NCBI GenBank assembly: GCA_950096985.1
Contig: CATNBA010000009.1
Span: 1-62,837, forward strand
DNA from: an uncultured Candidatus Melainabacteria bacterium
GTDB lineage: Bacteria > Cyanobacteriota > Vampirovibrionia > Gastranaerophilales > Gastranaerophilaceae
DNA: 62,837 nucleotides
Direction of reading: 5' to 3'
Part shown: positions 9,485 through 62,837 of the stretch, piece by piece
Numbering within the stretch: the stretch's first letter is position 1
Layout: each line of letters starts with the position of its first letter
Made by a program: the position numbers and the translations under genes
Notes under the pieces: model-generated
The model's input: only the letters and a program-made list of their open reading frames with translations
The model's database searches: none
What the model was told of the DNA's origin: nothing

Positions 9485-10795
9485 TTATACTTTATCCGGT
9501 TGAGCTTTTTTAGTATGAAAATCAATATCCAGAGCATATTGCTTACGAACGTTATCAGCAGCAACACCGAGTTTATTAATTACCCATCCTGACAACAGAC
9601 CGAACATTAATGCCTTGCCTCCGGAAACCAGTCTTGCTGTACAGTATAAAGAGGTTGCAATTGCACCTACGGCAGGAATACCGTATTTTAATGATGCAGA
9701 TATTCTTTCATCCTTATCTTTTGATTTTCCAAGAAACCAGGCAACAGCTCCGCCTGCTCCGACAATAGATATGACATCAGTAGGTCCTGCACCTAATTTT
9801 AAATCTCTTGCTTTGTCGTAGTATTTATTTGTTTCCGTATTTATAGATTTGTTTAAAGATTTAACCGCTTTTTTAGCATGAGTTTCTAACTGTAAATAAT
9901 CTTTCTTTGGCAGAATTTGTTTATATAGCTTTAATATCTCCTGTAATGCGTCCTTTGAAGCTTTTTCAAACTGTCCTGTTTTCTTAGACATTTTCTTCTT
10001 ATGCGGAAGGAGATAATCTTCTGCGATATAAGAACTCCACATATTTTTTGATTTAAAGTTTTTTATATCACTTAAACTTGCATTCCAAAAGTAATCAAAT
10101 AACCCCTCTGAAGCTTTATTCATTTGCCTCAAACGTTCATTTCTTGCATTAATTCCAAAACCTGCTTCAAGTCCGGAGTTCAAAGCAGTCATTCGAGTTG
10201 TAATTTCAGATACGGCATCTGCAATTTTAGCATCATTAGGATTTTCTCGCAGCAGCCTTTCATTTAATTTAAGCATGTGCTCATTCATACCTGCAAACCT
10301 TTTATGAGTTTTTGCATAAGATGAGTTAACGGTTCGTCTGCTTATTTTATCAAAAACTCCGGTTATACTCTCATGTATTTTTCGCGAAAACGTCCTTTCA
10401 CCATTTTTGCCAAACATCAATCTTTGAAGAGTAACGTCTTTTAATGTTGTAAAATTATTTATACTTTCAAATCGATTTCGAAAAGCATCAATTTTAGCAA
10501 GAGAGAATTTGTAAAAATTCTTTAATTTACTGTCTTTTGCCAGTTTTTTTTCTAAAGAAATTTTCCACTTGTTTAAAACTTTTGAAAATGATTTTGACAT
10601 TACACCTTTCATCAAAGCAAGTGTGCCAAATCCCGCTCCCATTGCATACAATACAATCTTCTTACCGGAAATACCCGCCTTATTTTGCTCATCACCTTCT
10701 TGTTGTTTAGGCACAATTAAGTAACTGCCGTTTTGCGGCTGTTTAAATTCGCTAAAAGCACGCGAAGAAATATTACTGCCTACCTGATTAATCAT
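9485..10795 (-). CDS. lineage-specific membrane protein, 436 residues
   Basis: No recognised domain. The N-terminus (MINQVGSNISSRAFSEFKQP) is polar. A hydrophobic segment lies near residues 46-65 (I-V-L-Y-A-M-G-A-G-F-G-T-L-A-L), followed by about 260 residues rich in Lys, Asn and Ser that read as helical. Further hydrophobic stretches occur near 338-352 and 367-405 (V-G-A-I-A-T-S-L-Y, L-M-F-G-L-L-S-G-W-V-I-N-K-L-G). The start is at the ATG, with no strong ribosome-binding site. The layout resembles the proteins at 5499, 47467, 48042 and 50262. It lies between dgt and lpxB, separated from both by short gaps. Function unknown. Confidence 0.7.
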   Translation of the reverse strand: MINQVGSNISSRAFSEFKQPQNGSYLIVPKQQEGDEQNKAGISGKKIVLYAMGAGFGTLALMKGVMSKSFSKVLNKWKISLEKKLAKDSKLKNFYKFSLAKIDAFRNRFESINNFTTLKDVTLQRLMFGKNGERTFSRKIHESITGVFDKISRRTVNSSYAKTHKRFAGMNEHMLKLNERLLRENPNDAKIADAVSEITTRMTALNSGLEAGFGINARNERLRQMNKASEGLFDYFWNASLSDIKNFKSKNMWSSYIAEDYLLPHKKKMSKKTGQFEKASKDALQEILKLYKQILPKKDYLQLETHAKKAVKSLNKSINTETNKYYDKARDLKLGAGPTDVISIVGAGGAVAWFLGKSKDKDERISASLKYGIPAVGAIATSLYCTARLVSGGKALMFGLLSGWVINKLGVAADNVRKQYALDIDFHTKKAQPDKV

Positions 10796-10822
10796 TATAT
10801 ATATATAAACACAAAAAAACAG

Positions 10823-11956
10823 TTAAATTTGACCACTTTGTAAAGCTTTGTAAACAGCTTGAGCAGCCTCTTTAGAAGAAACTTTATCCGATAATAAACT
10901 TTTAACTTCGCCGAGCTGCAAAATATTATTATTTCGGTATTCACTGTCATATAAAAATCGTTCAATTTCGTAAGAAATTCTATTAATATTAACGTCGCTC
11001 ATCAATAATTCCGGCACAATCAGCCTGTCAGAAATTATATTTGGGAGAGATACACGTTTAATACATCTTACAAGCAAATAAATAAAATAAAAAAGCCATG
11101 GACCGCGATACGCAATAATCATAGGGGTTTGATACAAACAAGCCTCAAGAGCAACAGTTCCAGATGCAAGTATTAAAGCATCAGAAACGCTCAATAAAGC
11201 TTGATTTTCTCCCTTAATAACTTTAAAATCGGTCTTCTTCAAAAACTTATTATAAACTTCATCCGATAAATTAGGTGCATGTGAAACACAAAACTGCAAA
11301 TCAGGATGTTTCTTTTGTAAAAATTGAGCAGTTTTAACAAAAATATCCATCAAATATTTTAGTTCAAACACTCTTGAGCCCGGGAAAATTGAAACAAGTT
11401 TTTTTTGTTTATCAAATCCGTGTTTTTCAAAAAACTCATCTTTATCAGTTTTTTCAGATAATTGTGACACGAGCGGATGCCCGCAGTAATGACATTTTAT
11501 ACCGTAACTTTCATATAACGGCTGCTCAAAAGGGAAAATACAAAGAACTTCATCAACATTCTTTTTGATTTTGTGAATTCTGCCTTTCCTGCTTGCCCAA
11601 ACCTGTGGAGGAATATAATAAAGAACCTTAATTCCCGCTTTTTTCAAAAATCCTGCAATTCTAATGTTAAATCCGCCATAATCAATTAAAAGTACAGCAT
11701 CAGGCTTAAATTCTTTTGTTAAGTAATCAACAAGGCGTTTTCCTAGCATTATATGATTAAAAATAATTTGTGGCGAAAGACCTACAGATGACATTTTTGA
11801 ATGGTTCTCAAAGAGTTTTACACCTGCTTTAGCCATATTCTCTCCGCCGATACCTTCAATTTCAATATCAGCATTAAGTTCGTACAAAGCTTTCACAACA
11901 TGTGATGCGTGAATGTCTCCCGAATATTCTCCTGTTACGACAAATAATTTCTTCAT
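10823..11956 (-). CDS. lpxB: lipid-A-disaccharide synthase
   Basis: A 377-residue GT19 enzyme with the N-terminal G-E-Y-S-G-D-I-H-A motif, the I-E-G-I-G-G-E-N-M segment, F-P-F-E-Q at about residue 143, the G-H-P-L-V motif, and F-P-G-S-R-V-F-E-L-K near 194. It condenses UDP-2,3-diacylglucosamine with lipid X to form the lipid A disaccharide, at the inner face of the inner membrane. It overlaps lpxI by 4 bp (ATGA), so the two successive lipid A steps are translationally coupled. This is strong evidence that the AT-rich organism has an LPS-bearing outer membrane. Confidence 0.96.
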   Translation of the reverse strand: MKKLFVVTGEYSGDIHASHVVKALYELNADIEIEGIGGENMAKAGVKLFENHSKMSSVGLSPQIIFNHIMLGKRLVDYLTKEFKPDAVLLIDYGGFNIRIAGFLKKAGIKVLYYIPPQVWASRKGRIHKIKKNVDEVLCIFPFEQPLYESYGIKCHYCGHPLVSQLSEKTDKDEFFEKHGFDKQKKLVSIFPGSRVFELKYLMDIFVKTAQFLQKKHPDLQFCVSHAPNLSDEVYNKFLKKTDFKVIKGENQALLSVSDALILASGTVALEACLYQTPMIIAYRGPWLFYFIYLLVRCIKRVSLPNIISDRLIVPELLMSDVNINRISYEIERFLYDSEYRNNNILQLGEVKSLLSDKVSSKEAAQAVYKALQSGQI

Positions 11957-12768
11957 ACCGCCATTATTACAATATTATGTTCATCAGCGTATCTGATTAC
12001 TTTTTCCTGATTTACTATAATCGTTTCGTTAGCCTCAACAGCAATCAATGATGCTTTATATCTTCTCATTGTTTTTAATGTTCTTAATCCTATAGCCGGA
12101 ATATCAAATCTTTTATCTTGAGAGGGCTTGGCAACTTTAACAATAACAGCACCTTTTCTTGCGTTTTTACATCCGCGTTTAATACACATATCAGTGCCTT
12201 CGATTGCCTCAACAGCCATAGCCATTTTGTCTTTGATAACAACAGACTGCCCGACATCAACTTTACCCATCTCTTTAGCTAACCAAAAACCGTAATTAAC
12301 ATCTTCCATCTGACTTTCGGTTGGTTTTAATTTACCGAGAACTCCTGATGGTATCATAAGATTTTTAATAAATATAGTCTGATCAAGCACTTTAATATTA
12401 CGTTTTTCAAACTCATTTACTATCAAAAGCATAACTTCATCATCATTAAGCCTTTTTACTGATTTTAAAATTTCAATTGCACGTTTATCAAACTTATGAA
12501 GTTTCAATAATACACGTTTATGTACTTTTCCCAAAAAAGTAACCTGTTTTATTTCATTTTCTGTAAAAATATTTTCAATTTTTGTCATTTCGCCCGGATG
12601 GCAAGAATAAACTTTTGAACAATATTTTTTTAACTCTTTCAAATTATCATTAGCAAGGGAAACGCATATAACTTCAAATCCGTTTTCTTTTGCATGACGA
12701 GCCATTTCAACGGGTAAAATCCCATCTCCTGCTATTAATCCCTGTTTATTTTCCAACATTAAAGACAT
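11953..12768 (-). CDS. lpxI: UDP-2,3-diacylglucosamine pyrophosphatase LpxI
   Basis: A 271-residue protein of the LpxI (formerly DUF1009) family: N-terminal G-L-I-A-G-D-G-I-L-P-V and the C-terminal domain with the family motifs V-G-Q-S-V-V-I, A-V-E-A-I-E-G-T-D near residues 191-199, and F-D-I-P-A-I-G. LpxI hydrolyses UDP-2,3-diacylglucosamine to lipid X, an alternative to LpxH. A GAGGAAAG ribosome-binding site precedes the ATG. The gene is followed without a gap by lpxB, which uses its product. Presence of LpxI rather than LpxH is common in alphaproteobacteria and cyanobacteria-related lineages. Confidence 0.95.
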   Translation of the reverse strand: MSLMLENKQGLIAGDGILPVEMARHAKENGFEVICVSLANDNLKELKKYCSKVYSCHPGEMTKIENIFTENEIKQVTFLGKVHKRVLLKLHKFDKRAIEILKSVKRLNDDEVMLLIVNEFEKRNIKVLDQTIFIKNLMIPSGVLGKLKPTESQMEDVNYGFWLAKEMGKVDVGQSVVIKDKMAMAVEAIEGTDMCIKRGCKNARKGAVIVKVAKPSQDKRFDIPAIGLRTLKTMRRYKASLIAVEANETIIVNQEKVIRYADEHNIVIMAV

Positions 12769-12794
12769 ATCTTTCCTCTTTTACCCTAATTATA

Positions 12795-13421
12795 TCACAA
12801 TTTTTTCTTTAGTGAGTTGATTTCATCAACTTCTGATTTATTAAACAAAACAGCTCCGCCCATAAGTTTGGTATTAAAAACAACCTGAGCATAACTTTCT
12901 GCAAGTTCCAGTTTTAAAAACGCATCTTTTATAGTTTTATCTCCGACAATAAAACCATGATTTGCCATCAATACAGCATCATAATCTTTAAAATATTTAG
13001 CAGTTTTTTCAACCAAATCCATTGAAGAAGGAAGACCGTATTCTGCCAGAGGTATTTGTCCGAAATAAAACACATTTTCTGCCATAACGGGTTCATCCAA
13101 AGGAATATGGCAACATGCAAAGGAACTTAAATAAGGCGAATGTACATGGATAATATAATTTACATCAGGTCTCTGTTTATAAAATTCAGCATGTAACATT
13201 TTTTCGGAAGAAGGTTTTTTATCACCTTCAACCAAATTACCTTCAAAATCCATTAAAACAAGTTCATCCTCAGACAAATAACCGTTTGCCGACCCGGATG
13301 AAGTAATCAAAATCTTATCTTTGTATCTTGCAGAAAAATTACCTGAATATCCCGGTGTAAAATTTTTCACACCGGCAAGTCGTCCGTATTCAATTAATTC
13401 CTGTTTTAATTTATCCAACAT
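12795..13421 (-). CDS. class II aldolase/adducin-family protein
   Basis: A 208-residue protein with the class II aldolase fold: N-F-T-P-G-Y-S-G-N-F-S-A-R (substrate phosphate loop), T-S-S-G near residue 42, the zinc ligands in I-I-H-V-H-S-P-Y near 91-98, and M-A-N-H-G-F-I-V-G near 153-161. Family members cleave or epimerise sugar phosphates (L-fuculose-1-P aldolase, L-ribulose-5-P 4-epimerase, MtnB). The exact substrate cannot be told from sequence. Its ATG shares one base with the lptD stop (TAATG), so it is coupled to the envelope operon, which makes an LPS-sugar role plausible but unproven. Confidence 0.87.
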   Translation of the reverse strand: MLDKLKQELIEYGRLAGVKNFTPGYSGNFSARYKDKILITSSGSANGYLSEDELVLMDFEGNLVEGDKKPSSEKMLHAEFYKQRPDVNYIIHVHSPYLSSFACCHIPLDEPVMAENVFYFGQIPLAEYGLPSSMDLVEKTAKYFKDYDAVLMANHGFIVGDKTIKDAFLKLELAESYAQVVFNTKLMGGAVLFNKSEVDEINSLKKKL

Positions 13422-15535
13422 TATAACTGTTCCCTGTCAGGGTCTTCAATATCTATAACTTCCGCATACATCATCTTTTTAACTCTTGTTTGCGGCTGAT
13501 TATCGTCAAAGACTTTTAATTCAACAATTTCTTTATCGCTTTTAGCTAATCTTTCAGGATGTTTGATTACCATTTTTTCATATTCAATTCCTGAACCTTT
13601 TGTATCCATAGCAACTACAAGAGCAAAATATGTATGTTTTCTTACCCAATCGTAGCCTAAATTCAATTTTAAATCATCAGGTCCTAATGAAACAACAAAA
13701 GTACATTCCTGAAAAGCTTTTCCGTTTGGCGAATCCCCGGTAACATTAATATTACCTGACCAAGCTACAGACAAATATTTAGTTAAACGTAAAGCTTCTC
13801 TGATATAAATACTTCCATGACCGTATCTGTATGTATCATAAACCTTTAGCGGAGTACCGTCTTCGTAGGCTGATGCAAAATATCCGATATCCTGCATCCA
13901 ATATTTATACTGGGTATGAATTTTAGGCCCTACTCTTCCTATAAATTGAGTATCGCCTGTACCGTATAAAGCAGCACTCCCCTGCATAACAAATGAAATA
14001 TCAATAGCTTTTCTGTTTTCTCTATCAACATATTTATACAAACTCTGGTCAGCCTGTGCCATATATCTTGTTCTGGTTGTACCGATGTTTGAAGGATCCA
14101 GAGTCTCACCATATCTGTTGAAATCACTGTTATGCATATAACCAAAACCTAAACGGTGTCTGAATTTCAAATCAAGTCCGTCACCAATAGTTGATGGAAT
14201 AATGCCGTTGTCATTATAAATTAATTCAAGATTATATTTAGCCATTCTCGGCCCGATAAACCATTCATCCATGTATGAATTCATACCGTATTGCATATAT
14301 AGCTTATCGTCTAAATATTGTTTACCTTTCAAAATAAACATATCAGACCCTGATCCGTATCCGAAGTCAGTGTAATTAGTTGCACTGCGGTATTTCAAGA
14401 AAGCGCCTATACCAAAATCCTCTTTTTTATTAAGTATAGGTAATACCTTTAAAGTTGAACCGCCCTGCAAAGGAGTATCCAAAGTATATCCGGGTCCTAA
14501 AAACATACCAAATCTGCCGCGAGAGCCTAATTCAGGATAATTTCCTTCAAAATATTCCTGATTTTTATTAGTATGCATCCTAATTGTAGGAAGTGTAAAC
14601 AATTTAAAATCACCGTAGTGAATTTTAGCTTTTTTCAAAGTTATTGTATCGGTATTTTTTTTAGCATCAATAATAACTTCTTTTGCTTTAACCGTAACAG
14701 CAGTATCTCCGATTTCTTCTGTTATAGAAGATTTATCTTCTTCTTCAACAAACATATTTCTAAAACGGTCACCGCCTACCATTTTTGTATGAAAATTCAA
14801 TATGTAAGAATCTTTTGAAACCATTTGACCGTCATATAATACAATCAGGTCTTCATCCATTTCTGCTTTTCTTGCAGTTACAGTCATAAATGAAGCTTTT
14901 GTTTCAACGTTATCCAAAAATGCATTTTCTTCATTCAAATTTACATTAAGATTTTCACCCCAAATACTGTGTCCGTCTTTTATAATCTCAACTTTATCAA
15001 AGGCTTTTAAAATATTTGAGGCTGTATTATAAACAATTTTATCAGCTTTTATAGATACATTTTGCGGAGGAAACGACAGAACCGGCGAACCTGTTGCAAT
15101 AATATCCATTGTTTGTTCATCATAATCTATTTTATCAGCATCAAGCAGAACATTATTCGCCGTTACCTGTTCTTTAACTGCACCTTGAAGTTCCAGAGTT
15201 TCATCACTTATTGGTGTTGTTACTTCTTGTTCCGGATTATCTTTTTTCTGAAGTTTTTGTTCTTTTTCAAGAAGTTTTTGCGCTTTATTATATTCTCTTT
15301 CGCGCAGGTAATTTGTCATCTTTATTCTGGTTTTTTTGAATAAAGGCAGTGTTTTAATAGGTTTAGCAGTACTTCCTTCAATGACCTTAACCTCCGGCAT
15401 AGGCATTGACGGAGCTTCATAAAACTGTTCCTGAATATTTTCTAAATCTTCGGGAGTTTCAACCAAATCTCGAGCCATAGCTCCATTGGTTATTATTGAT
15501 AATATTAATGCTGATAAAATTAAATGCTTTTTCAA
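13421..15535 (-). CDS. LptD/OstA-like outer-membrane LPS assembly protein
   Basis: A 704-residue protein with a signal peptide (hydrophobic core, cleavage probably after A-M-A near residue 21) and a periplasmic OstA/LptA-type beta-jellyroll with alternating D-K-I-D-Y-D and D-K-I-V-Y-N repeats at about residues 130-270. A long C-terminal region of alternating aromatic and polar strands follows (for example LYMQYGMNSYMDEWFIG), typical of a beta-barrel. LptD inserts LPS into the outer leaflet. Sequence and length diverge from proteobacterial LptD (about 780), so I give no symbol. It lies upstream of the aldolase, lpxI and lpxB on the same strand, and 12 bp downstream of the M23 peptidase gene. 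Confidence 0.82.
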   Translation of the reverse strand: MKKHLILSALILSIITNGAMARDLVETPEDLENIQEQFYEAPSMPMPEVKVIEGSTAKPIKTLPLFKKTRIKMTNYLREREYNKAQKLLEKEQKLQKKDNPEQEVTTPISDETLELQGAVKEQVTANNVLLDADKIDYDEQTMDIIATGSPVLSFPPQNVSIKADKIVYNTASNILKAFDKVEIIKDGHSIWGENLNVNLNEENAFLDNVETKASFMTVTARKAEMDEDLIVLYDGQMVSKDSYILNFHTKMVGGDRFRNMFVEEEDKSSITEEIGDTAVTVKAKEVIIDAKKNTDTITLKKAKIHYGDFKLFTLPTIRMHTNKNQEYFEGNYPELGSRGRFGMFLGPGYTLDTPLQGGSTLKVLPILNKKEDFGIGAFLKYRSATNYTDFGYGSGSDMFILKGKQYLDDKLYMQYGMNSYMDEWFIGPRMAKYNLELIYNDNGIIPSTIGDGLDLKFRHRLGFGYMHNSDFNRYGETLDPSNIGTTRTRYMAQADQSLYKYVDRENRKAIDISFVMQGSAALYGTGDTQFIGRVGPKIHTQYKYWMQDIGYFASAYEDGTPLKVYDTYRYGHGSIYIREALRLTKYLSVAWSGNINVTGDSPNGKAFQECTFVVSLGPDDLKLNLGYDWVRKHTYFALVVAMDTKGSGIEYEKMVIKHPERLAKSDKEIVELKVFDDNQPQTRVKKMMYAEVIDIEDPDREQL

Positions 15536-15547
15536 AATTTAGCCTTC

Positions 15548-16666
15548 TTAAATGTAGTTTAATGGATTGTTTGGTTTACCGTTAATTCTTACTTCAAAAT
15601 GCACGTGAGGTCCGGTACTATAGCCTGTCGTGCCTTCAAAACCTATAACATCACCTTTATTAACATACTGCCCCTGCCCAACTTTTATTGAGGACATATG
15701 TGCATAAAGTGTAGTGGTAGGTTTACCGTTAATTGTACCATGGTCAAGTATAACTACCTTACCATATCCGCCGTACCATCCCGAGTATATTACTTTACCG
15801 GAATTTGACGCCCTGATACTACCCTTGTTAGGACCTGCAATATCTACTCCCGAATGGAATGTTTTACTGTTAAATATAGGGTGTGTTCTCCATCCGAAAG
15901 GTGATGATATACGACCGCCTATAGGACGTAAAAATCCTGCAGAAGATACTTTTATAGAGCTGTCACCTTTATTTCTGGCAATCATACTTTGAATACTTGC
16001 CGACTGCCTTGCTAATTCTCTCTCAGCCTGTTCATAGGTTCTTCTGTCAGTTTTATATTTATTAATTAAATTTTGGTTTTGAGCTATTGCATACTTAATA
16101 TTTTTTTGTTGAGAATTAATATTCTGAATTGATTGATCTAATGCAATTTTTCTTGCCTGAATATCTCTTTTCATCATTGCAATCTTTTGAGATTTTGCTT
16201 TTACTGCCATCATTCTCGAGTAGTCTTTTTTCAAAACAATTTTTTCAAAATAAACTACGTCAAGCAAAGAATTCAAATCTTTAGCCGTAAATATTAATTC
16301 AAACATGCCTGTGCGCTGGTTTTTATAAACCTGCCTTATTCTCTGCCTCATCTGAATATTTGCATCATTAAATTGAGCAACAGAACTTGCGAGTTCCCTT
16401 TCCATTTGAGCTAATTGAACTTCCAAAGAAGCACGTTGTTTCTGAGAAGATTGCAAGCTGTTTGATGCCTGCTCAAGCTTTCTTTGATTTTTAGATAATT
16501 TGCTTTTTTCAGCATTTTCAAGATTTTTTAAACGCTTAATTTTTTCCTGAGTAACTTTTTGTTTCTGCTGAATTGTTTTCAATTGATCCGCGCATGCAAA
16601 TTGGCTTATATTCCCTATAAGCATACAAAGCATCACTATAAACAATTTTTTTACAAATTTACTCAC
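15548..16666 (-). CDS. secreted coiled-coil M23 metallopeptidase (EnvC/NlpD-like)
   Basis: A 372-residue protein with a signal peptide (FIVMLCMLIGNISQFACA), a long coiled coil at about residues 30-225 rich in Gln, Lys and Leu, and a C-terminal LytM/M23 domain. The zinc ligands are intact: H-S-G-V-D near residue 270, L-Y-A-H-M and H-V-H-F-E near 350. That predicts active peptidoglycan endopeptidase activity, unlike E. coli EnvC, whose domain is degenerate. EnvC-type proteins act in the periplasm in septal cell-wall splitting. The start codon is GTG, with TAGGT as ribosome-binding site overlapping the stop of a 34-residue ORF. Neighbours are LPS assembly genes. Confidence 0.93.
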   Translation of the reverse strand: MSKFVKKLFIVMLCMLIGNISQFACADQLKTIQQKQKVTQEKIKRLKNLENAEKSKLSKNQRKLEQASNSLQSSQKQRASLEVQLAQMERELASSVAQFNDANIQMRQRIRQVYKNQRTGMFELIFTAKDLNSLLDVVYFEKIVLKKDYSRMMAVKAKSQKIAMMKRDIQARKIALDQSIQNINSQQKNIKYAIAQNQNLINKYKTDRRTYEQAERELARQSASIQSMIARNKGDSSIKVSSAGFLRPIGGRISSPFGWRTHPIFNSKTFHSGVDIAGPNKGSIRASNSGKVIYSGWYGGYGKVVILDHGTINGKPTTTLYAHMSSIKVGQGQYVNKGDVIGFEGTTGYSTGPHVHFEVRINGKPNNPLNYI

Positions 16667-53573: not shown

Positions 53574-53589
53574 AGGAATATACTCATGC

Positions 53590-53678
53590 GGAGTAATGGC
53601 CGAGTGGCTGAAGGCGGCACCCTGCTAAGGTGTTATGTGGAGCAATCTGCATCTAGGGTTCAAATCCCTATTACTCCG
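53590..53678 (+). tRNA. tRNA-Ser (anticodon GCT)
   Basis: An 89-nt class II tRNA. Acceptor GGAGTAA pairs with TTACTCC, discriminator G. The anticodon stem CACC/GGTG surrounds loop CTGCTAA with anticodon GCT, and there is a long variable arm. The T-arm contains GGTTCAAATCC. CCA is not encoded. The last 17 bp (53661-53677) recur with one mismatch at 53857-53873, which marks this tRNA as an integration site for a genomic island. Confidence 0.96.
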
Positions 53679-53682
53679 AATA

Positions 53683-53856: not shown

Positions 53857-53873
53857 CAAATTCCTATTACTCC
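53857..53873 (+). repeat. attachment-site-like repeat of the tRNA-Ser 3' end
   Basis: CAAATTCCTATTACTCC matches 53661-53677 (CAAATCCCTATTACTCC) at 16 of 17 positions. Such a direct repeat of a tRNA 3' end is the usual trace of tyrosine-integrase insertion. The interval between the copies is only 179 bp, so it would be a leftover of an excised or degraded element, or the inner edge of a nested one. It is not part of a complete second tRNA. Confidence 0.6.
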
Positions 53874-53903
53874 CTTTTTAAATTTTTTGAGGTGCAGATA
53901 GGG

Positions 53904-54050
53904 TTAATCTTTTATTAAAACATGATTACCATTAATAGTTACCCATTTCCCGTCTGCTTTTTCTGAAGTGGTTGAATAACTTTTTTCTTTTTCATGTGTT
54001 TTGGCATCTGACGGTAAATCGTTTTTGTAAGGAATTCCGATACTGTTCAT
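53904..54050 (-). CDS. short phage-derived protein fragment
   Basis: A 48-residue frame from ATG 54050: MNSIGIPYKNDLPSDAKTHE, a Ser/Lys-rich stretch, then K-A-D-G-K-W-V-T-I-N-G-N-H-V-L-I-K-D and stop. The W-V-T-I-x-G-x-H-V-x-I motif is one I associate with ends of phage head or MuF-type proteins. There is no good ribosome-binding site and no upstream coding region, so this is probably a remnant of a larger phage gene. It lies between the tRNA repeat and the Mu-like module. Confidence 0.4.
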   Translation of the reverse strand: MNSIGIPYKNDLPSDAKTHEKEKSYSTTSEKADGKWVTINGNHVLIKD

Positions 54051-54287
54051 TTGGGCAAGTGTTAAGAAACAGGACAATACAGAAAAGGGGAACCAGCCTT
54101 AAAGTCACTGAATATAAAAGAATTTAGGAGTTTTTAGGGTTGCAGAAAAGTCCGATATGTCCGATTTTCGTCATTATTGCGTCCTGAAAAGGTCTAAATT
54201 TATAGAACAATATGCCCAAAAGCCTTATTTCTGTAAGGGAATATCGATTGACAATCATTGGACTTTTGGTATTTAAAAAGTAACATT

Positions 54288-54358
54288 GGTTCCGGAAAAA
54301 ATATTTTTCTGTTACTAAACGGAACCTTAACGGAACTTCTAGAGGAACCAAACGGAAC
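54288..54358. promoter_or_regulatory. array of CGGAAC boxes, downstream side of the Mor-like gene
   Basis: GGTTCCG (54288-54294, inverted) is followed by CGGAAC at 54320, 54331 and 54353 and AGGAAC at 54343. The direct copies start 10-12 bp apart, about one helical turn. They run into the last codons of the Mor-like gene. They look like repressor operators or transposase end-binding sites. Confidence 0.6.
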
Positions 54359-54674
54359 TTTTATTTTTTACCATTTTTCCTTCAACATGTTCTTTAATTA
54401 CTTTATAAACATATCTGGTGGTTGTTTGACATTCTCTTGCAAGTTTGTTGTAATTATCTGTAGCTATATAATTATCTATAATGTATTGTCTTTTATATGC
54501 TTGGTTGCAATGGGCATGGATAGAAAATTTCTGTCCAGCCGCACGGAACATTAATTTCTTTGTTGCTTCTAAGCCAATGATAGAGCATAGATATTGCAAA
54601 TCTTCGGTTGGCAAATTATCTTCTGTAATGTATTTTGCCCATGCGGGTTCTTCAGGTTCTTGGCGTCTAATCAT
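54339..54674 (-). CDS. Mor-like HTH transcription regulator
   Basis: A 111-residue protein. Residues 20-50 (N-L-P-T-E-D-L-Q-Y-L-C-S-I-I-G-L-E-A-T-K-K-L-M) fit the Mor activator family of Mu-like phages, in which a dimerisation helix follows this motif. The C-terminal 60-95 region has an HTH, with Y-I-I-D-N-Y, N-K-L-A-R-E-C-Q-T-T-T-R-Y-V-Y-K-V-I. It is divergent from the MuA-like gene and flanked by CGGAAC boxes on both sides. In Mu the place next to A is held by the c repressor, so this gene may repress or activate the transposition genes. Homology is moderate. Confidence 0.65.
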   Translation of the reverse strand: MIRRQEPEEPAWAKYITEDNLPTEDLQYLCSIIGLEATKKLMFRAAGQKFSIHAHCNQAYKRQYIIDNYIATDNYNKLARECQTTTRYVYKVIKEHVEGKMVKNKSSVWFL

Positions 54675-54748
54675 ATTATTCCTTTAATTTTGGTATGTAG
54701 CTTTTCATCTGACAGAGTTACACTTACCCCTTTTCTTTATTATAGTAC

Positions 54749-54781
54749 AAACGGAACCAAATTCGGTTCCGTTTAGTTCCG
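54749..54781. promoter_or_regulatory. CGGAAC operator cluster between Mor-like and MuA-like genes
   Basis: AAACGGAACC (54749-54758) and its inverse GGTTCCGTTT (54765-54774) form a 10-bp inverted repeat with a 6-bp spacer, followed by a third, inverted copy GTTCCG (54776-54781). TATAAT for the Mor-like gene lies at 54743-54738 on the minus strand, and TACAAT at 54801-54806 could serve the MuA-like gene, so the boxes sit between and over both promoters. The leader from 54807 to 54941 holds no ORF I trust. Confidence 0.65.
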
Positions 54782-54941
54782 TTTTAAAAAATTTTCTTAG
54801 TACAATAAATATTTTGTTTTTTCAATATCAGAAAAACAATGTTTTTGTGGGTTTGAAGTGGCAGTTGTTGATATGTTTCGATATGGATACATTGACTACA
54901 CATATATCTCAAGCAGAGTTAATGTGTGAGAGGAGATAATT

Positions 54942-56912
54942 ATGCAAAACTCAAGTGATTACTGGATTACAACTAAAGAACTTGCACAAATTAAAGGTGT
55001 ATCTGAAAGAGCAGTTCGTAAGGCAATAAGCAAAAATAAATATGTTATAAGAAAATGCTCAAAATCTTACGAAATTCTGGTAACATCTTTGGAAGAAAAT
55101 GTTAGAGAAAAAGTAACATCAAGCAAAGAAAAACCTGCCCAACTTATACCGATAAGTTATATAGTACCTGAAGCTCAAAAGAAATTGGCTCTTGCAAAAT
55201 ATGATTTAATCAAAAAATGGGATGAATATAGAAATACCAAGAAAAATAAAACAATTGCTGGAAAAGATTTTATTGATGCATACAACAGTGGCTGTATTTG
55301 TAATGATTTGTTTAATATTGTCGGCAAAGTTGCTATTGGAACAATTTATGAATGGCATAAGAAACTCCGTTTTAATAATGATGATTGGCACTGTTTGATT
55401 AACAACTATACGTTTGGCGAAAAAACTAAAAAATCTAATTTATCTGAAGAAGAAAAGTCTGAACTTTTGAAAAATCTTCTTCATCCAAACCAGTTAAACA
55501 TAGGAAAAGCAATCAAATATACAAAAATGGCATTAACTCACCGTGGATTTAAAAATTTGTGCTGCGATTTAACATATAGAAGATTTGCCAACAATTACAA
55601 AAATGAACATTATAACATTTGGGTTGAGGCAAGAGAAGGTAATAAAGCTCTGCACGATAAGGTTTTACCATATATCACAAGAGATATTTCAAAACTGGAA
55701 GTCGGGGATGTTATTGTTGGCGATGGTCACAAATTAGCATTTTTTGTTAAGCATCCATATAAAGGGACTTTTGTAAGACCGACTTTGGTTGCTTATCAAG
55801 ATTGGAAATCAGGCGGTTTTGTCGGGTTTGAAATTATGTTGGAAGAAAATACTCAATGCATTGCAAGTGCATTAAGAAACTCAATAATAAATTTAGGTAA
55901 GGTTCCAAAATATGTTTATCAAGACAATGGTAAAGCTTTTAAGGCAAAATATTTTATCGAAAATGGAATAACGGGATTATTTACCAATCTTGGTACTCAG
56001 CCGATTTATGCAAAACCCTACAATGCAAAGGCAAAGCCTATTGAAAGGCTATTTAGAGAGTTGCAAGATAGTTTTGAAGTAATACTTCCATCTTATACTG
56101 GCACAAGTATCGTCAAAAAGCCTGCTCAATTAAAAAGAAACGAAAAACTTCATAAAGAAATTTTTAAGGTCAATATTCCAACAATAGAGCAAGTTGTAAG
56201 AGTTCTTGAGATTTGGTTGCAAAAATATCATTACGAACAAAAATGTCCACATATTGAAGATAAAACAATAGGCGAAGTTCTTGAAAGCGGTAGAGGTGAA
56301 GGGATTAATATTGATACTTTAGATGACCTTATGATGGCTCGTGAAATTAAAAACATTTACAGAAACGGGATTTTATTTCTCAAAAATAATTATTATGACG
56401 AAGCGTTATTTGGTTATAAAAAGAAAGTAATTATTAAATACAGCTTGTTCGATTTGAGCTCAATTAAGGTTTACAAATTAAACGGGGAATTTATATGCAC
56501 CGCTAAAAGAGTTGAACCTGTTCACCCGTTAGCAAATTATTTGGGCGAAGCAAAAGACATAGAAGACTTAAAACAAAAAACAAAATTAAAGAAACAGTTA
56601 GAAAAAAGAACGGAACAAGAATACATAAATCATCTAAAACGAAATCAGGTTTATACTCCACTATTAACAATGGATTTACCTGAGAAACAAAAAGAGGATG
56701 AGATAAAACAATTCAGCCTTGAAGTTAAAGCGGATTTCCAAGCAGAAAATTTAAACGGCTGTTTCAAAACAAGATTTGAAAAGTATGAGCACTTGATTAA
56801 GAAAGAAAATCTTACCAAAAGTGAACAAGACTGGATTGCAGAATATAGATTAACGGATGAATACGAACAAATATATGGCGAAGAAGATAATAAGGAGGTA
56901 TTTAATGCGTAA
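54942..56912 (+). CDS. MuA-like DDE transposase
   Basis: A 656-residue protein in the MuA/TnsB-type integrase-like superfamily. N-terminal residues 8-45 are a Mu-type HTH (W-I-T-T-K-E-L-A-Q-I-K-G-V-S-E-R-A-V-R-K-A-I). The catalytic core spans about residues 250-385 with D261 (V-G-D-G-H), D328 (Y-Q-D-N-G) and E368 (K-P-I-E-R-L-F). A beta-barrel-like region and a charged C-terminal helix follow. It should cut and join transposon ends with the help of the downstream ATPase. GAGAGGAG is the ribosome-binding site. It overlaps the ATPase gene by 8 bp. Identity with phage MuA is low. Confidence 0.88.
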   Translation: MQNSSDYWITTKELAQIKGVSERAVRKAISKNKYVIRKCSKSYEILVTSLEENVREKVTSSKEKPAQLIPISYIVPEAQKKLALAKYDLIKKWDEYRNTKKNKTIAGKDFIDAYNSGCICNDLFNIVGKVAIGTIYEWHKKLRFNNDDWHCLINNYTFGEKTKKSNLSEEEKSELLKNLLHPNQLNIGKAIKYTKMALTHRGFKNLCCDLTYRRFANNYKNEHYNIWVEAREGNKALHDKVLPYITRDISKLEVGDVIVGDGHKLAFFVKHPYKGTFVRPTLVAYQDWKSGGFVGFEIMLEENTQCIASALRNSIINLGKVPKYVYQDNGKAFKAKYFIENGITGLFTNLGTQPIYAKPYNAKAKPIERLFRELQDSFEVILPSYTGTSIVKKPAQLKRNEKLHKEIFKVNIPTIEQVVRVLEIWLQKYHYEQKCPHIEDKTIGEVLESGRGEGINIDTLDDLMMAREIKNIYRNGILFLKNNYYDEALFGYKKKVIIKYSLFDLSSIKVYKLNGEFICTAKRVEPVHPLANYLGEAKDIEDLKQKTKLKKQLEKRTEQEYINHLKRNQVYTPLLTMDLPEKQKEDEIKQFSLEVKADFQAENLNGCFKTRFEKYEHLIKKENLTKSEQDWIAEYRLTDEYEQIYGEEDNKEVFNA

Positions 56913-57594
56913 ATTATTTGTAAAAACCCATAATGTCAAAAACTTCGTAGAATTAATGAACAACCTTATTGATAAATCTAATGAAGTTCCAAAAATGGGA
57001 TTAGTATATGGTGATCCCGGATTAGGTAAAACCAGAGTCGCAGTTTGGTGGGCAAATAGAAATGATGCGGTTTATGTTAGGGCTCAAAACAACATGACAA
57101 GTCACGGAATACTGGAAAAAATTGTTGAAGAACTGGGTGAAGCTCCGTCTAAAAAATCTACAGATTTAATAAAACAATGTATTGCACATTTAAGACTCAA
57201 TCCACAAGTTATCATCATTGATGAGGTTGACTATCTTATAGGTCGTTTTAAAACAATTGAAACATTAAGAGATTTACACGATTTAACAGGAGCGCCTGTT
57301 GTATTAATCGGAATGCAAGAAGCCAAAACAAAACTTGGGAAATTTAGGCACCTATATGACAGAATTTCTGAAATTGTAGAATTTAAAACTTTTTCCAAAG
57401 ACGATATGGAAGTTATTGTTGAAGAATTATCCGAAATTAAAATAACAGACGAGGCAAAAGAAATATTTTTTGAAAAATCAAACCGTTTTCGTCAAGCAAT
57501 TAAAGGCATTGCAACCTTAGAAAATTTAGCAAAAACAAACGGATTAAATAAAATTGATGTAAAACAAGTGAAAGGGCTAACCATTGAAAAATAG
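56905..57594 (+). CDS. MuB/TniB/IstB-like AAA+ ATPase
   Basis: A 229-residue ATPase. Walker A G-D-P-G-L-G-K-T at residues 36-43, Walker B V-I-I-I-D-E at 102-107, and a sensor region V-V-L-I-G-M-Q-E near 129-136, followed by R-I-S-E-I-V-E-F. MuB-type proteins polymerise on DNA, select targets and activate the transposase. The C-terminal half is helical. I start at ATG 56905 because a perfect AAGGAGG lies upstream; the frame can be extended to 56857 but that lies inside the transposase gene. Confidence 0.9.
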   Translation: MRKLFVKTHNVKNFVELMNNLIDKSNEVPKMGLVYGDPGLGKTRVAVWWANRNDAVYVRAQNNMTSHGILEKIVEELGEAPSKKSTDLIKQCIAHLRLNPQVIIIDEVDYLIGRFKTIETLRDLHDLTGAPVVLIGMQEAKTKLGKFRHLYDRISEIVEFKTFSKDDMEVIVEELSEIKITDEAKEIFFEKSNRFRQAIKGIATLENLAKTNGLNKIDVKQVKGLTIEK

Positions 57595-59227
57595 AGATTT
57601 AATTATAAAATCAGCAAGAAGATTAGATAAATTCACTCTTGATGATATAATCTTGGTTTCAGAGATTGATGAACAAGAAGTCGCAGATATTTTATCAGAA
57701 TTATTAAATGAAAAAATTGTCGTAAAAAACAATAATACTTACTTCTTTAATATCAAAAACAAAAGCAAAAATGGTAAGATAGCCTTCGAAACGGAGATTG
57801 AACCAATCATAATTGAAAAAGAAGAAGGTTATGATTATTTTCTCACCCTGAACAAAGAAACCCAAGAACGTATCAGAAGTTATATTGATTTGCTAAACTT
57901 TGTAAATCAAGCAGGTGGCAAAAATCTAAAACAACTAGTTGAATTATTTAATCAAACATCGGGTTACAAAAATATTTCTCTTTGTACATTGGGGCGGATA
58001 CGAACAAATTATAAAAGATATGGTTTTAAAGGTATTTTACCTTCATATAGTAAAGGTAATGTTGAATGTTCCATACCTGATGAACTATACAATTATTTTA
58101 AAAAATATTATTTAACTAATCAGAAATTGTCGGCAACAGATGCGATTTATCAAGCTCAAAAACAATTACAAGCAGAACAAAAAATCGAGCAACCTTATGC
58201 ACATACATCCGGTGCATTCTTGAGAAAATTAAAATCAGAATTTAAACCGCAACAAATTGAATATTTTAGAAATAACATAGTTCCACCCAAAGAAAAATCA
58301 GAAACTAAAAAAGAAATAAAAGAGCCTTTGGATATGCTATTTAAGGATGCAGCAAAAATATATTTTAACAGACTAAAAACAGAAAATAAGTTTGAGAGAA
58401 TAATGCATCAGAAAACAGATTATAAAAACCACTTGAAAGAATATTTTGGAGATTTACGGATAAGAGAAATCACAAATAAAGTTGTGGCAAGGTTTAAACA
58501 AAAACAATTTGATAGCGGATATCAGCTTATTTCTGTAAATATTTATATTTTAACTCTTAAAAATATTATTAATGCCGTTTGTCCTAAAACAAATTATCTT
58601 GTATCAAGAAGTAAAAGTCTTAAAGAAAATACTTATGCTATGGATATGAATTTATTAACCGAAAATCAAATTTCAAAATTACTGGACATTTGTTATAAAA
58701 AATATCCTGAAGCCTATCCGATATTGTACATTTCCTTATCTACAGGGGCAAGTATCCCCGAGTTATTGGGATTAACTTGGGATAGAATTGATTTTAGAAA
58801 TGAAATAATTTTTCTAAAATACTTTCTATATGGTGATAAACTCGTTATGACTAAATGCAATTCTACAATGCGTAGATTGAAAATAGATTGGAATATTTGT
58901 GAGGATCTTGAGTACAAATACCATATATCAGATCCTGAACCTAATGATTTTATTTTTAGATTTGAGAGTAATAAACAACCTCAACAGTATATCGAAGAAA
59001 ATGTTTTGCAACCCTTAGCAAAAGAAATTGGTGTTTCAAAATTAAATCCGAGTGATGTTCAACATAATTTTGTTAATATGTGTATTAAACAAAATATTCC
59101 GCTCACATATATTCAAAAATCACTTGGGTACTATGGGATAACCAATTTTGTTAAGGTATATCGAAATTTAATAGAACAACAAGAAGAAGATTATTATAAT
59201 CCGCTTGATAAGATTTTGAAAAAATAA
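57584..59227 (+). CDS. fusion of Mu-transposase-like DNA-binding region with degenerate tyrosine recombinase
   Basis: A 547-residue protein, starting at TTG 57584 with AAAGGG upstream and overlapping the ATPase gene by 11 bp. Residues 1-55 resemble a winged helix. Residues 95-225 (T-L-G-R-I-R-T-N-Y-K-R-Y-G-F-K-G and later K-L-S-A-T-D-A-I) look like the end-binding HTH region of MuA/TnsB transposases. Residues 250-335 match a core-binding SAM-like domain and 355-530 a phage-integrase fold. In that fold the catalytic set is mostly lost: Arg I is Ser390 in T-G-A-S-I-P-E-L-L-G-L, the HxxR motif is S490-D-V-Q493 and the second His is Tyr516. K424 and Tyr526 remain. So it probably binds DNA rather than cutting it. 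Confidence 0.75.
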   Translation: MKNRDLIIKSARRLDKFTLDDIILVSEIDEQEVADILSELLNEKIVVKNNNTYFFNIKNKSKNGKIAFETEIEPIIIEKEEGYDYFLTLNKETQERIRSYIDLLNFVNQAGGKNLKQLVELFNQTSGYKNISLCTLGRIRTNYKRYGFKGILPSYSKGNVECSIPDELYNYFKKYYLTNQKLSATDAIYQAQKQLQAEQKIEQPYAHTSGAFLRKLKSEFKPQQIEYFRNNIVPPKEKSETKKEIKEPLDMLFKDAAKIYFNRLKTENKFERIMHQKTDYKNHLKEYFGDLRIREITNKVVARFKQKQFDSGYQLISVNIYILTLKNIINAVCPKTNYLVSRSKSLKENTYAMDMNLLTENQISKLLDICYKKYPEAYPILYISLSTGASIPELLGLTWDRIDFRNEIIFLKYFLYGDKLVMTKCNSTMRRLKIDWNICEDLEYKYHISDPEPNDFIFRFESNKQPQQYIEENVLQPLAKEIGVSKLNPSDVQHNFVNMCIKQNIPLTYIQKSLGYYGITNFVKVYRNLIEQQEEDYYNPLDKILKK

Positions 59228-59236
59228 GGAGCAATT

Positions 59237-59665
59237 ATGAAAAAGCAAATGTTGGCAGAGTCTGCTGCAAATCTATATATTGAAAAATTTATGACATTAG
59301 AAACTATTGCAAAACAATTAAACGTAAGCGAAAGAACACTTCGACGTTGGAAAGCAGAGGGTAATTGGGATGCAAAAAGATTTAACTATATTCAATCAAA
59401 AACAACATTTCATGAGGATTTGTATAGTTTTGGCAAAAACCTTTTAGATTCAATAATGACAGATATGAAAAACGGTGAAAAAGTAGAGCCCTCAAGAATG
59501 TACACCTTAACTAAAATTATCAATATGCTCAAAAATGTAAAAACTTATGAGGATAAGGTTAAAAACGAACAATTTTTACCAGAGGTTCAAAAATCAGAAG
59601 GTTTATCACCTGATATTATCAAAGAAATTGAAGAAAAGATTTTAGGTATAACTTATGATGGATAA
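59237..59665 (+). CDS. HTH protein like Mu gp27/DUF1804 or small terminase
   Basis: A 142-residue protein. Residues 5-42 read as an HTH with a terminase-small-subunit look: A-A-N-L-Y-I-E-K-F-M-T-L-E-T-I-A-K-Q-L-N-V-S-E-R-T-L-R-R-W-K-A-E-G-N-W. The rest is helical and charged and ends K-I-L-G-I-T-Y-D-G. Proteins of this type in Mu-like phages are DUF1804 or gp27-like. It follows the recombinase fusion by 9 bp with AAGGAG, and it is the last gene of the transposition operon. It may bind DNA ends or act as regulator; no packaging gene is present. Confidence 0.6.
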   Translation: MKKQMLAESAANLYIEKFMTLETIAKQLNVSERTLRRWKAEGNWDAKRFNYIQSKTTFHEDLYSFGKNLLDSIMTDMKNGEKVEPSRMYTLTKIINMLKNVKTYEDKVKNEQFLPEVQKSEGLSPDIIKEIEEKILGITYDG

Positions 59666-60111: not shown

Positions 60112-61116
60112 TTATTCTTCAATAGTTAATAATTTTATGTTTTCTTTTGAAATCATATCAGCAAGTTCTTCTTCTGTTGGAAGAACCGTTTTATATTTAC
60201 TTGCAAAAATCTGTTGGCTTTCTTTTAACACAGAATATTTAACCATTGTTTCAGACTTGTCTGTGCATAAAATTATCCCTAAAGTTGGGTTGTCGTCAGC
60301 TCCACGCTTTAATTCATCAAACATTCTGACATACATATCCATTTGTCCAATATCAGCATGAGTTAGTTTTGTGGTTTTTAAATCAATTACAACAAAACAT
60401 TTTAGGATGTAATTATAGAAAACCAAATCTGCATAGAAATGGTCTGTTTCGGTGCTAATTCTGAATTGACGAGCTACAAAACTAAACCCTTTGCCAAGTT
60501 CAAGCAAGAATTTTTGCAAATTGTTGATTAAAGCTGTTTCTAATACGCTTTCTTTACCTTCAATATTTTCAGGCAAGTCAAGGAATTCTAAAACATATGG
60601 ATCTTTTATAAATTCATTTGTGTCAATTATCATAGGTAAACACTTTTCAGTATCATTCTGCACTTGTGTTGATAAAAGTCTATGATAATAACCACTTTTT
60701 ATGTTTCTCTCTAGTTGGCGATAAGACCAATTCTGTGATGAAGCTTCTTTTAAATAGTAATCACGTTCGCTAGAATTATCTATGCGTAAAATTCGGGCAA
60801 TGTTTGACCAACTCAAATTCGCTAGACACTGTCTGTCGAATTCAGGATATGTGATATAAAATTGGCGCATGTTCTTTAAATTCGCTTCTGAAAAACCTTT
60901 GCCAAAAGTATCCGTAAGGTATTTCGACAAATTTTCAATAAGCTTTGTTCCATATTCTGCTCTTGAACTTCCACCTTGTTCTTCTTCAACAATACGCTGA
61001 CCGATTTTCCAATAAGTTTCGACCATAATGGAATTAACCGAATGATAAGCTTTCGCACGAGCAATATTAAGTAATTCAGCTATATCATTATAAATTTTAG
61101 AAACTTCATTTGCCAT
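60112..61116 (-). CDS. DUF1016/YhcG-family PD-(D/E)XK nuclease
   Basis: A 334-residue protein. The N-terminal DUF1016_N part (Y-W-K-I-G-Q-R-I-V-E-E-E-Q near residues 35-47, F-S-E-A-N-L-K-N-M-R-Q-F-Y near 75-87, L-S-W-S near 101) is followed by a nuclease part with Y-A-D-L-V (D230) and V-V-I-D-L-K-T-T-K (D245 and K247). These are the metal-binding residues of a PD-(D/E)XK fold. The family is common in phage-defence islands and next to restriction-modification genes; a general function is not fixed. No restriction-modification gene is adjacent. A copy of its 5' end lies beyond AbiH at 62271-62375. Confidence 0.9.
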   Translation of the reverse strand: MANEVSKIYNDIAELLNIARAKAYHSVNSIMVETYWKIGQRIVEEEQGGSSRAEYGTKLIENLSKYLTDTFGKGFSEANLKNMRQFYITYPEFDRQCLANLSWSNIARILRIDNSSERDYYLKEASSQNWSYRQLERNIKSGYYHRLLSTQVQNDTEKCLPMIIDTNEFIKDPYVLEFLDLPENIEGKESVLETALINNLQKFLLELGKGFSFVARQFRISTETDHFYADLVFYNYILKCFVVIDLKTTKLTHADIGQMDMYVRMFDELKRGADDNPTLGIILCTDKSETMVKYSVLKESQQIFASKYKTVLPTEEELADMISKENIKLLTIEE

Positions 61117-61165: not shown

Positions 61166-62233
61166 TTATATGTTGCTCAATTGAACTTCTTTTTGTTGGA
61201 CTAGAATGCCTCTTTCAGGGTCATCCTGTTTAATAAATCTGACTTTTGTCATAACTTCTTCTTCGCCAATTATTAAATCAATATTACTCTGCATTCGTGC
61301 CAATGCTTCTTCATCGTGATAATAAATATTTATAATAGATTTTTCCCTTGCTAAAAGTATATGCTTTAAAATATTATGATCAGTTTTATCAAGAGAATGT
61401 CCAATTATATGAAATCTAGGAATATACATTTTTTTAGGATATTTTAGTTCATTTAATAGTTCTTGATATGACTCAATTGTTCCATATTTATGTCTTTGAT
61501 GATGTTTTTTAAATATATTAAATTCAACAGGAATCTGCTCATTGTCAAAACTATGAGTTCCTAAAACTAAATTGCAACAATCCTCATTATTTATTTTCCC
61601 ATGTATATATACTGCTTTTGTTTTTATTCCACAAGTATTATGGTTGAAATTGATTTTATAAAGTTGTTCGCAAGTATCTGTATAATTAAAATTTAATAAA
61701 CTTACACAATCACTATTAAGGCGTAATTTATATTTAGGTGCATTTTGTATTTTTTGAGTTTCTTCTATTAAATATTTTTCAAATTCTTTTACAAAATCCT
61801 GAAGTTGATTATATAAAAAATTAATAAAATCTTTAATTGGCACATTATAGCAATCACCCCTAAAAAAAGAATCAGGTTTTCTAAAATATTTTCTAGATTC
61901 GTCAAAATTAAATCCTTCACAATCTTTTGCTATCCAAAATGCTATATTTTTATATCTTTCATCTGAAACACTGTTTTCAAAATATGACAATTCACTTAAT
62001 TTTACAATTACATTATAAATCTCATTTTCAAGATCAATCCATTTGTCACCAGACAAAATTTTATTTAAAAAGTGCTTAGCCCAAACATTGTTATATAAGA
62101 AGTTGTGACTTTTATCTACCCCCACACTTCTTGTAGTACTGTATTTTTCTTGATAATATTTCAGAAAATCCTCATATTTTGTATCTAAGCCATGTGCTAA
62201 ATCAAATCCATTCCCTAAAATCAAAATATCCAT
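61166..62233 (-). CDS. AbiH-family abortive-infection protein
   Basis: A 355-residue protein. The AbiH signature is at the N-terminus: I-L-I-L-G-N-G-F-D-L-A-H-G-L at residues 3-16, then Y-E-D-F-L. It resembles a nucleotide-binding loop. Further in are L-L-N-F-N-Y-T-D-T-C near 183-192, H-G-K-I-N near 215-219 and I-G-H-S-L-D-K-T-D-H near 280. AbiH in Lactococcus lets infected cells abort phage growth; the mechanism is not known. I start at ATG 62233 with GAGGTG upstream. It lies between two direct copies of the DUF1016 5' region. Confidence 0.9.
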   Translation of the reverse strand: MDILILGNGFDLAHGLDTKYEDFLKYYQEKYSTTRSVGVDKSHNFLYNNVWAKHFLNKILSGDKWIDLENEIYNVIVKLSELSYFENSVSDERYKNIAFWIAKDCEGFNFDESRKYFRKPDSFFRGDCYNVPIKDFINFLYNQLQDFVKEFEKYLIEETQKIQNAPKYKLRLNSDCVSLLNFNYTDTCEQLYKINFNHNTCGIKTKAVYIHGKINNEDCCNLVLGTHSFDNEQIPVEFNIFKKHHQRHKYGTIESYQELLNELKYPKKMYIPRFHIIGHSLDKTDHNILKHILLAREKSIINIYYHDEEALARMQSNIDLIIGEEEVMTKVRFIKQDDPERGILVQQKEVQLSNI

Positions 62234-62270
62234 TTTGCCACACCTCAAACTATCCCAAACAGAATAAAAC

Positions 62271-62476: not shown

Positions 62477-62837
62477 ATGGGTTACAGATTTAGAAAAAGT
62501 ATAAATTTAGGTGGCGGATTTAAAATAAATCTGAGCAAATCTGGTATTGGTTATAGTTGGGGTGTTCCCGGTATGAGATATACTAAGTTAGCGAATGGAA
62601 GGGAAAGATATACTTATTCTATTCCGGGAACGGGTCTCTCTTATGTTGAAGATGCTTCTTCTGGAAGGCATCAGCAACAGCAAACTTATAATGATAATCC
62701 GAATACTGTTGGTGTAATAGAAGAAAAAGTTAGCAACACTGATTTTGAAGGAAATTCTGGTTTTGATGAGTTTATAAAAAAAATCAATGAATTTCGCAAT
62801 ATAGATCAAAACATTAAAACTAGTATATTAATTCTAT
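62477..62837 (+). CDS. DUF4236-domain protein (truncated by window edge)
   Basis: An open frame of 120 codons from ATG 62477 (AGGGGTG upstream) to the window end. It begins M-G-Y-R-F-R-K-S-I-N-L-G-G-G-F-K-I-N-L-S-K-S-G-I-G-Y, then S-W-G-V-P-G, and I-P-G-T-G-L-S-Y, the full DUF4236 domain. The family has no assigned role; it is often joined to other domains or found on mobile elements. The Gln/Asn-rich linker after residue 65 and the helical end suggest that a second domain follows beyond the window. It is divergent from AbiH. Confidence 0.85.
   Translation, partial: MGYRFRKSINLGGGFKINLSKSGIGYSWGVPGMRYTKLANGRERYTYSIPGTGLSYVEDASSGRHQQQQTYNDNPNTVGVIEEKVSNTDFEGNSGFDEFIKKINEFRNIDQNIKTSILIL

Follow-up and report, generated by a model that had tools for sequence, protein, structure and literature searches.

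The present analysis identified a cargo transposon of the MuA/MuB type in Gastranaerophilales, most mapped copies of which lie on the 3′ side of tRNA genes. We consider it reasonably likely that the product of its third core gene, C, selects these targets through a tyrosine recombinase half that has lost its catalytic residues. The copy that was analyzed is located in a stretch of 62,837 nucleotides (contig CATNBA010000009.1, hereafter the window) from an uncultured Candidatus Melainabacteria bacterium.

Boundaries and gene content of the element

The relevant features of the window are the following:

53589–53679, + strand: tRNA-Ser(GCT) gene (ARAGORN; Rfam RF00005), 3′ end towards the element and 380 bp from its left end; presumed target landmark
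53871–54059, − strand: 3′ part of a host gene, convergent to the tRNA gene and interrupted by the insertion; uninterrupted in genomes G008, G046 and G318
54060–54093, + strand: left end of the element, TGTTAAGAAACAGGACAATACAGAAAAGGGGAAC; conserved in 20 loci, boundary confirmed by empty sites
54339–54674, − strand: Mor-like transcription activator gene, divergent from the transposase operon (Pfam Mor, 1.3e-5; phrog_836 late activator, 8e-8)
54942–56912, + strand: gene A, Mu-type DDE transposase (Mu-transpos_C, 2e-14; phrog_310, 2e-94)
56857–57594, + strand: gene B, MuB/TniB-like AAA+ ATPase (AAA_22, 4e-20; TniB, 6e-11; phrog_296 DNA transposition protein, 1e-50)
57584–59227, + strand: gene C, proposed target selector; winged helix (residues 1–60), MuA/TnsB-like DNA-binding segment (residues 93–235) and dead tyrosine recombinase (residues 250–545)
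59237–59665, + strand: small HTH protein similar to Mu gp27/DUF1804/terminase small subunit (Phage_terminase, 1e-8; DUF1804, 1e-6; phrog_756, 6e-18)
60112–61116, − strand: cargo, YhcG/DUF1016 PDDEXK nuclease, candidate defence gene (PDC-S02)
61166–62248, − strand: cargo, AbiH-like abortive infection protein (Pfam AbiH, 3e-36; PADLOC AbiH)

Comparison of 16 close loci revealed a shared left end (TGTAAAGAAACAGGACAATACAGAAAAGGGGAAC) at position 54060 of the window, and Hamming scans located the right end (GTGTTACTTTTTCTGCTTTCTCATGTTAATTAACA); the mapped ends read TGTAAAG...TTAATTAACA. Both ends were found in 12 elements with sizes ranging from 14.2 to 19.5 kb. Seven of them are flanked by exact 5-bp direct repeats (TTGGT, GTGGG, CTTAT, CCACA, TCCGG, TTGGA and AAGGA), and the five that lack matching target site duplications (TSDs) probably result from nested insertions or rearrangement at crowded loci. 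At the left boundary, the three uninterrupted genomes, which belong to the same genus, read ...TTTGGGCAAG/AATTTC... and the window reads ...TTTGGGCAAG/TGTTAAG.... The joined flanks of another copy (G073b) are also contiguous in G265, G053 and other genomes of the same genus. The copy of the window is known from its left end only, the contig stopping at position 62837, before the right end and the TSD.

The D-D-E motifs of transposase A are visible (GDG, QDNG and ERLFRE). The divergent Mor-like gene and genes A, B and C are present in all 12 complete elements, and the gp27-like gene in eight. Much of the other cargo is related to defence and includes type I restriction-modification systems, a GmrSD-type nuclease, Shango (SngABC), methyltransferases and HNH nucleases. 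A scan of most cargo genes of two TSD-complete elements found no structural phage gene (head, tail or packaging), and the gp27-like HTH protein is the sole packaging-like gene product of the elements. A plain Mu-like prophage was ruled out, since the defined ends hold only core genes and defence cargo. The most frequent cargo gene on the left-end side of the mor-like gene encodes a Ser/Thr protein kinase (L004, 4404–5552, and homologues; six of the 12 elements). The left-end region of the window (54100–54360) and its mor-A intergenic region (54745–54785) contain repeats (GGTTCCGTTT/AACGGAACC and GTCCGATATGTCCGATTTT) that look like putative operator or transposase binding sites.

Insertion behind tRNA genes

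For 15 of the 20 copies whose left end was mapped, a tRNA gene (Ser, Met, Gln, Ile, Phe or His) has its 3′ end 39 to 380 bp away and always faces the element. This gene is located at the left end of the element in 11 copies and at the right end in four, showing that insertion beside a tRNA gene occurs in either orientation of the element. The host carries 38 tRNA genes in 1.65 Mb, and a random point would qualify with a probability of about 0.9%. The observed frequency has a binomial P of about 4e-27 compared to random sites and of about 2e-13 compared to intergenic sites only (about 8% chance, assuming an intergenic fraction of 12%). The original prediction had guessed that the element targets tRNA genes; these positions agree with it, and target selection at tRNA genes is well supported.

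The tRNA cases verified by a TSD are 43, 53, 71 and 109 bp away from the gene, and the greater distances concern copies without verified TSD. In some of the longer gaps, the DNA between the tRNA gene and the element resembles ends of other family members, and several elements therefore seem piled behind the same tRNA gene. In the window, the 380 bp that separate the tRNA-Ser(GCT) gene from the element are partly native host DNA, also found in the empty-site genomes. For five of the 20 insertions, no tRNA gene lies within 400 bp; two of them (G101a and G150) sit in sequence resembling ends of other family elements, and an Rfam search at four non-tRNA insertions found no other RNA gene nearby. 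TniQ/TnsD (PF06527) was not detected in 15 host genomes by a search that found the positive control, plasmid R751.

Domains and fold of protein C

ORF C is intact and encodes 547 amino acids from a TTG start codon. It overlaps gene B by 11 nt, an overlap that is retained among close relatives and that agrees with its initial description as a third gene coupled to the transposase and ATPase genes; the small HTH gene lies directly 3′ of it. The protein carries one core-binding domain and a complete but mutated catalytic domain. The tyrosine recombinase fold that had been proposed for residues 250–530 was recovered by: (i) Pfam, with matches to Phage_integrase (residues 358–529, E 9e-10) and to the SAM-like N-terminal domain (residues 253–305), (ii) PHROGs, in which the C-terminal half matches phrog_1 integrase (2e-20), and (iii) structural comparison, the best solved match being the integrase of Tn1549 (6en2, Z 18, residues 250–544), with further matches to XerA and to the HP1 and P2 integrases. 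The AlphaFold2 model, built from 28 relatives, has a mean pLDDT of 79 (about 90 across the catalytic domain). YopR (8bj6, 8bpz) and SroF (9rgl, 9rd5) also match the fold of C (Z 11–12).

The original prediction had also likened residues 95–225 to MuA/TnsB, and this likeness holds as well. PHROGs relates residues 90–229 to the transposase family phrog_310 (E 3e-4), and second Mu-type transposases of related elements are found with a profile built on residues 93–235 (best about 1e-31), which gives stronger support than Foldseek on residues 1–238, in which TnsB (8ea3, 7svw, 8aa5) and MuA (4fcy) are among the top matches with weak E-values (about 0.06–0.1). Modelled alone, the N-terminal part is predicted to fold as a winged helix similar to MarR/ROK-type domains (Z about 10), with a helical part behind it. 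Viral contigs searched with the single C protein gave no match, and phage records gave only ordinary integrases over its C-terminal half and transposases at 23–34% identity.

Some loci depart from this organization. In L060 (14135–15803) and L014 (441–2071), C is split into two overlapping frames at nearly identical positions (around residue 278). In L081, the recombinase part and the part containing the winged helix and MuA-like segment are separate neighbouring genes; a programmed frameshift or a natural split is possible. Two tandem diverged C genes, each with a recombinase half, are found in L065 (5157–8432), L064 (10660–13974, − strand) and L075.

Loss of catalysis and selection on C

Among the catalytic set R-K-H-R-H-Y, C keeps only K424 and Y526: Arg I is replaced by S390, HxxR by S490-D-V-Q493 and the second His by Y516, exactly as had been read initially. 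None of the about 30 full-length relatives keeps the full set, as Arg I and the His of HxxR are absent from all of them. Close relatives also lack the second His and most of them have an Arg instead of K424; several distant relatives have a Phe instead of Y526. C is under purifying selection: when the copy of the window is compared with its 92% relative, dN/dS is about 0.09 over the full protein and 0.08 over the dead catalytic domain alone (range 0.08–0.10). Since all relatives are dead and dN/dS is low, the loss of catalysis is old and the domain is kept for a use other than strand exchange. A damaged ordinary integrase was ruled out because of both the absence of the catalytic set in all relatives and this selection.

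Diversity of the A-B-C family

The transposase was found in 161 of the 288 genomes of the family. A search for the same three-gene set in other Gastranaerophilales, one of the checks proposed at the outset, identified about 105 oriented A-B-C loci. In these loci, C starts where B ends and encodes nearly always the same winged helix first, followed by: (i) a MuA-like segment and a recombinase (n = 35), (ii) another HTH module (n = 23), (iii) a core-binding domain with a lost or truncated catalytic domain (n = 17), (iv) a MuA-like segment and that same HTH module (n = 15), or (v) a MuA-like segment only (n = 14). By eye, the other HTH module resembles an IS1595-type transposase domain. Where a tRNA or tmRNA gene lies nearby, it faces the element (45 loci), with one exception.

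The third proteins consisting of the winged helix and another HTH are encoded at tRNA or tmRNA genes in 17 of 23 cases, and those with the MuA-like segment only in five of 14. A tRNA gene is nearby in none of the five loci encoding a C of 508/509 aa with a recombinase half, none of the 15 encoding a C of 414 aa and three of the 17 encoding a C of about 260 aa (core-binding class), the flanks being often incomplete in these three groups. The main caution raised by this distribution is that tRNA homing follows the lineage of the element and not the mere presence of the recombinase half. The original interpretation stands for the tRNA target, and its tie to the recombinase half does not follow from the distribution (17 of 23 without this half, none of five with it).

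Smaller elements with a winged helix and another HTH (L109, L115, L117, L118, L119, L121 and L122) have their right end (...AAATGTCCCATTAAAACCCA) nearly always next to a tRNA-Asn gene and apparently home to one isoacceptor. Related elements are found behind a tmRNA gene in L150 (4863–5263) and L104, and a decayed remnant that keeps C fragments and an intact right end lies behind a tRNA-Ala gene (L082 of G023, about 9690–15842). A second Mu-type transposase gene follows C in L076 (4255–6261; C40, the window's own genome), L146 (9860–11824), L156 (9914–11869) and L162 (9847–11802); its D-D-E motifs are visible by eye in the C40 copy, and no closer relative of the MuA-like segment of C was found than its DNA-binding part. 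Comparison of left flanks in the 414/509-aa class found no single conserved gene. Sister elements encoding a 690-aa transposase (L130, L133, L143 and others) carry, among other defence genes, Gabija-like pairs of OLD-TOPRIM ATPase and UvrD helicase genes; on their left flank, the gene clusters c66/c68 and c40/c87 were each encountered in three loci.

Proposed role of C and alternative explanations

Tyrosine integrases commonly use the 3′ ends of tRNA genes as attachment sites. For this reason, and since C is the only DNA-binding protein with variable modules that is always encoded with A and B and TniQ is undetected in the hosts, we infer that C itself carries out tRNA target selection through its recombinase half, in a role plausibly similar to that of TnsD/TniQ. 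We hypothesize that this non-cutting half binds the 3′ part of tRNA genes (T-arm/acceptor region), as this region is often the attB site of active tyrosine integrases and is the only sequence common to the different tRNAs hit. The winged helix, constant across nearly all versions of C, would recruit or activate the ATPase B. Under the guidance of B, transposase A would then place the element, in one orientation or the other, at a point tens to a few hundred bp downstream of the tRNA gene, leaving this gene intact. The MuA-like segment in the middle of C could attach to the element ends or provide additional target contacts. Selection by an inactivated tyrosine recombinase also has a precedent in TnsF, which chooses the target of Tn6022 (PMC10293859). 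The variable distances to the tRNA gene (39–380 bp) and the five of 20 insertions beyond 400 bp count against a recombinase-based selector.

The strongest alternative, although unlikely in our opinion, is that the shared core (B, A or the winged helix of C) determines homing to tRNA genes, the dead recombinase half being an accessory arm for DNA binding that serves, for example, the element ends or the modulation of the ATPase. It would account for third proteins that lack a recombinase domain and are nonetheless found at tRNA or tmRNA genes (other HTH, 17 of 23; MuA-like, five of 14) and for elements with a dead recombinase found elsewhere (none of five for the 508/509-aa proteins), figures that cast doubt on the recombinase half as the reader. 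However, sister elements with related A and B are rarely near tRNA genes (none of 15 with a 414-aa C, three of 17 for most of the 260-aa class), implying that A and B alone do not dictate homing, and the nearly constant association of one group with tRNA-Asn suggests a reader specific to each version.

The structural matches to YopR and SroF would fit a transcriptional repressor or architectural regulator of the element, since the dead recombinase fold of MrpR/YopR is the master repressor of SPbeta (PMC10516654). We find this improbable: C comes last in the A-B operon, overlaps B and is not a divergent repressor gene, the divergent Mor-like gene already covers a regulator-like role, and repression would leave tRNA homing unexplained. 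It is even harder to believe that C plays no part in the choice and that insertions behind tRNA genes merely persist because they are harmless. Sites outside tRNA genes, sometimes in the 3′ ends of convergent genes, would fit such a selection. However, the enrichment remains about tenfold when only intergenic sites are considered, the G073b insertion, at 109 bp from the tRNA gene, disrupts the beginning of the following gene, and a bias towards tRNA genes is absent from related elements whose cargo is similar.

Target selection by C through its recombinase half may be part of a broader scheme, for and against which we see equal grounds. In this scheme, C proteins would be a modular family of target selectors of MuA/MuB-type transposons, in which a constant winged helix that serves as adaptor to the ATPase and bears exchangeable modules for reading DNA (from tyrosine recombinases, MuA-type transposases and the other, IS1595-like HTH module) plays the TniQ/TnsD part and several versions specialized independently for tRNA or tmRNA genes.

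To our knowledge, MuB-type transposition is regarded as showing little target specificity and as having no dedicated selector. In the open-licence literature, we came across no account of this element, nor of any selector belonging to the MuA/MuB type. Mu and IS21 are presented as relatives in an extensive survey of the target selectors of Tn7, in which no selector is reported for IS21 (PMC10293859). Target selection by a recombinase fold was initially thought to be new; this must be withdrawn, as TnsF of Tn6022 was already known (PMC10293859). Dead tyrosine recombinases have so far been shown to act as selectors only in Tn7-type elements, and the new features here are the MuA/MuB-type setting devoid of TniQ, the fusion, tRNA genes as target and the exchangeable domains. 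If C is indeed the selector of a MuA/MuB-type element, the co-option of dead recombinases for homing arose outside Tn7 and without TniQ. It would also explain the accumulation of defence islands behind tRNA genes in gut bacteria of the Gastranaerophilales. As tRNA targets are universal and safe, the system is attractive for studying, and possibly building, site-directed insertion.

Comparison with known systems

The element shares with phage Mu a Mu-C DDE transposase, a MuB/TniB-like ATPase, a Mor-like activator, a gp27-like protein, a 5-bp duplication and TG...CA ends. It differs from it by its size (14–19.5 kb), its defence cargo with no structural gene found, its strong preference for tRNA genes and its additional gene C. 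A DDE transposase of the TnsB/MuA group, an AAA+ ATPase and a 5-bp duplication are common to Tn7-like elements and Mu and thus do not discriminate between them. As in Tn402/Tn5053 (TniABQ) and Tn7 (TnsABCD), one operon encodes a transposase, an ATPase and a third DNA-binding protein, and the element homes beside a conserved gene without destroying it. However, TniQ/TnsD was not detected, the third protein is made of recombinase and transposase DNA-binding parts, and insertion occurs in either orientation with a variable spacing, whereas that of TnsD is fixed.

The integrase of Tn1549 has the closest solved fold (6en2, Z 18); unlike it and other tyrosine integrases, C lacks the catalytic residues and is not expected to perform strand exchange. 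Reuse of the tyrosine recombinase fold as a repressor is known for MrpR/YopR of SPbeta (PMC10516654). C resembles this protein and SroF of phi3T in the reuse of the fold for DNA binding, but these are phage repressors that lack a MuA-like part and are not encoded in a transposon operon.

One of the closest known parallels is TnsF of the Tn7-like element Tn6022, an inactivated tyrosine recombinase experimentally shown to be a target selector (Faure 2023, PMC10293859) and encoded, like C, with a DDE transposase and an AAA+ ATPase. The architecture of TnsF comprises zinc fingers at the N-terminus, two core-binding domains and a catalytic domain that is only partial (PMC10293859), whereas C has a winged helix, a MuA-like segment and a full catalytic domain. 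Furthermore, TnsF works via TniQ and targets comM (PMC10293859); insertion into comM is not the pattern of the present element, 15 of 20 insertions being located behind tRNA genes, and C would act on the 3′ side of these genes in a setting in which no TniQ was detected.
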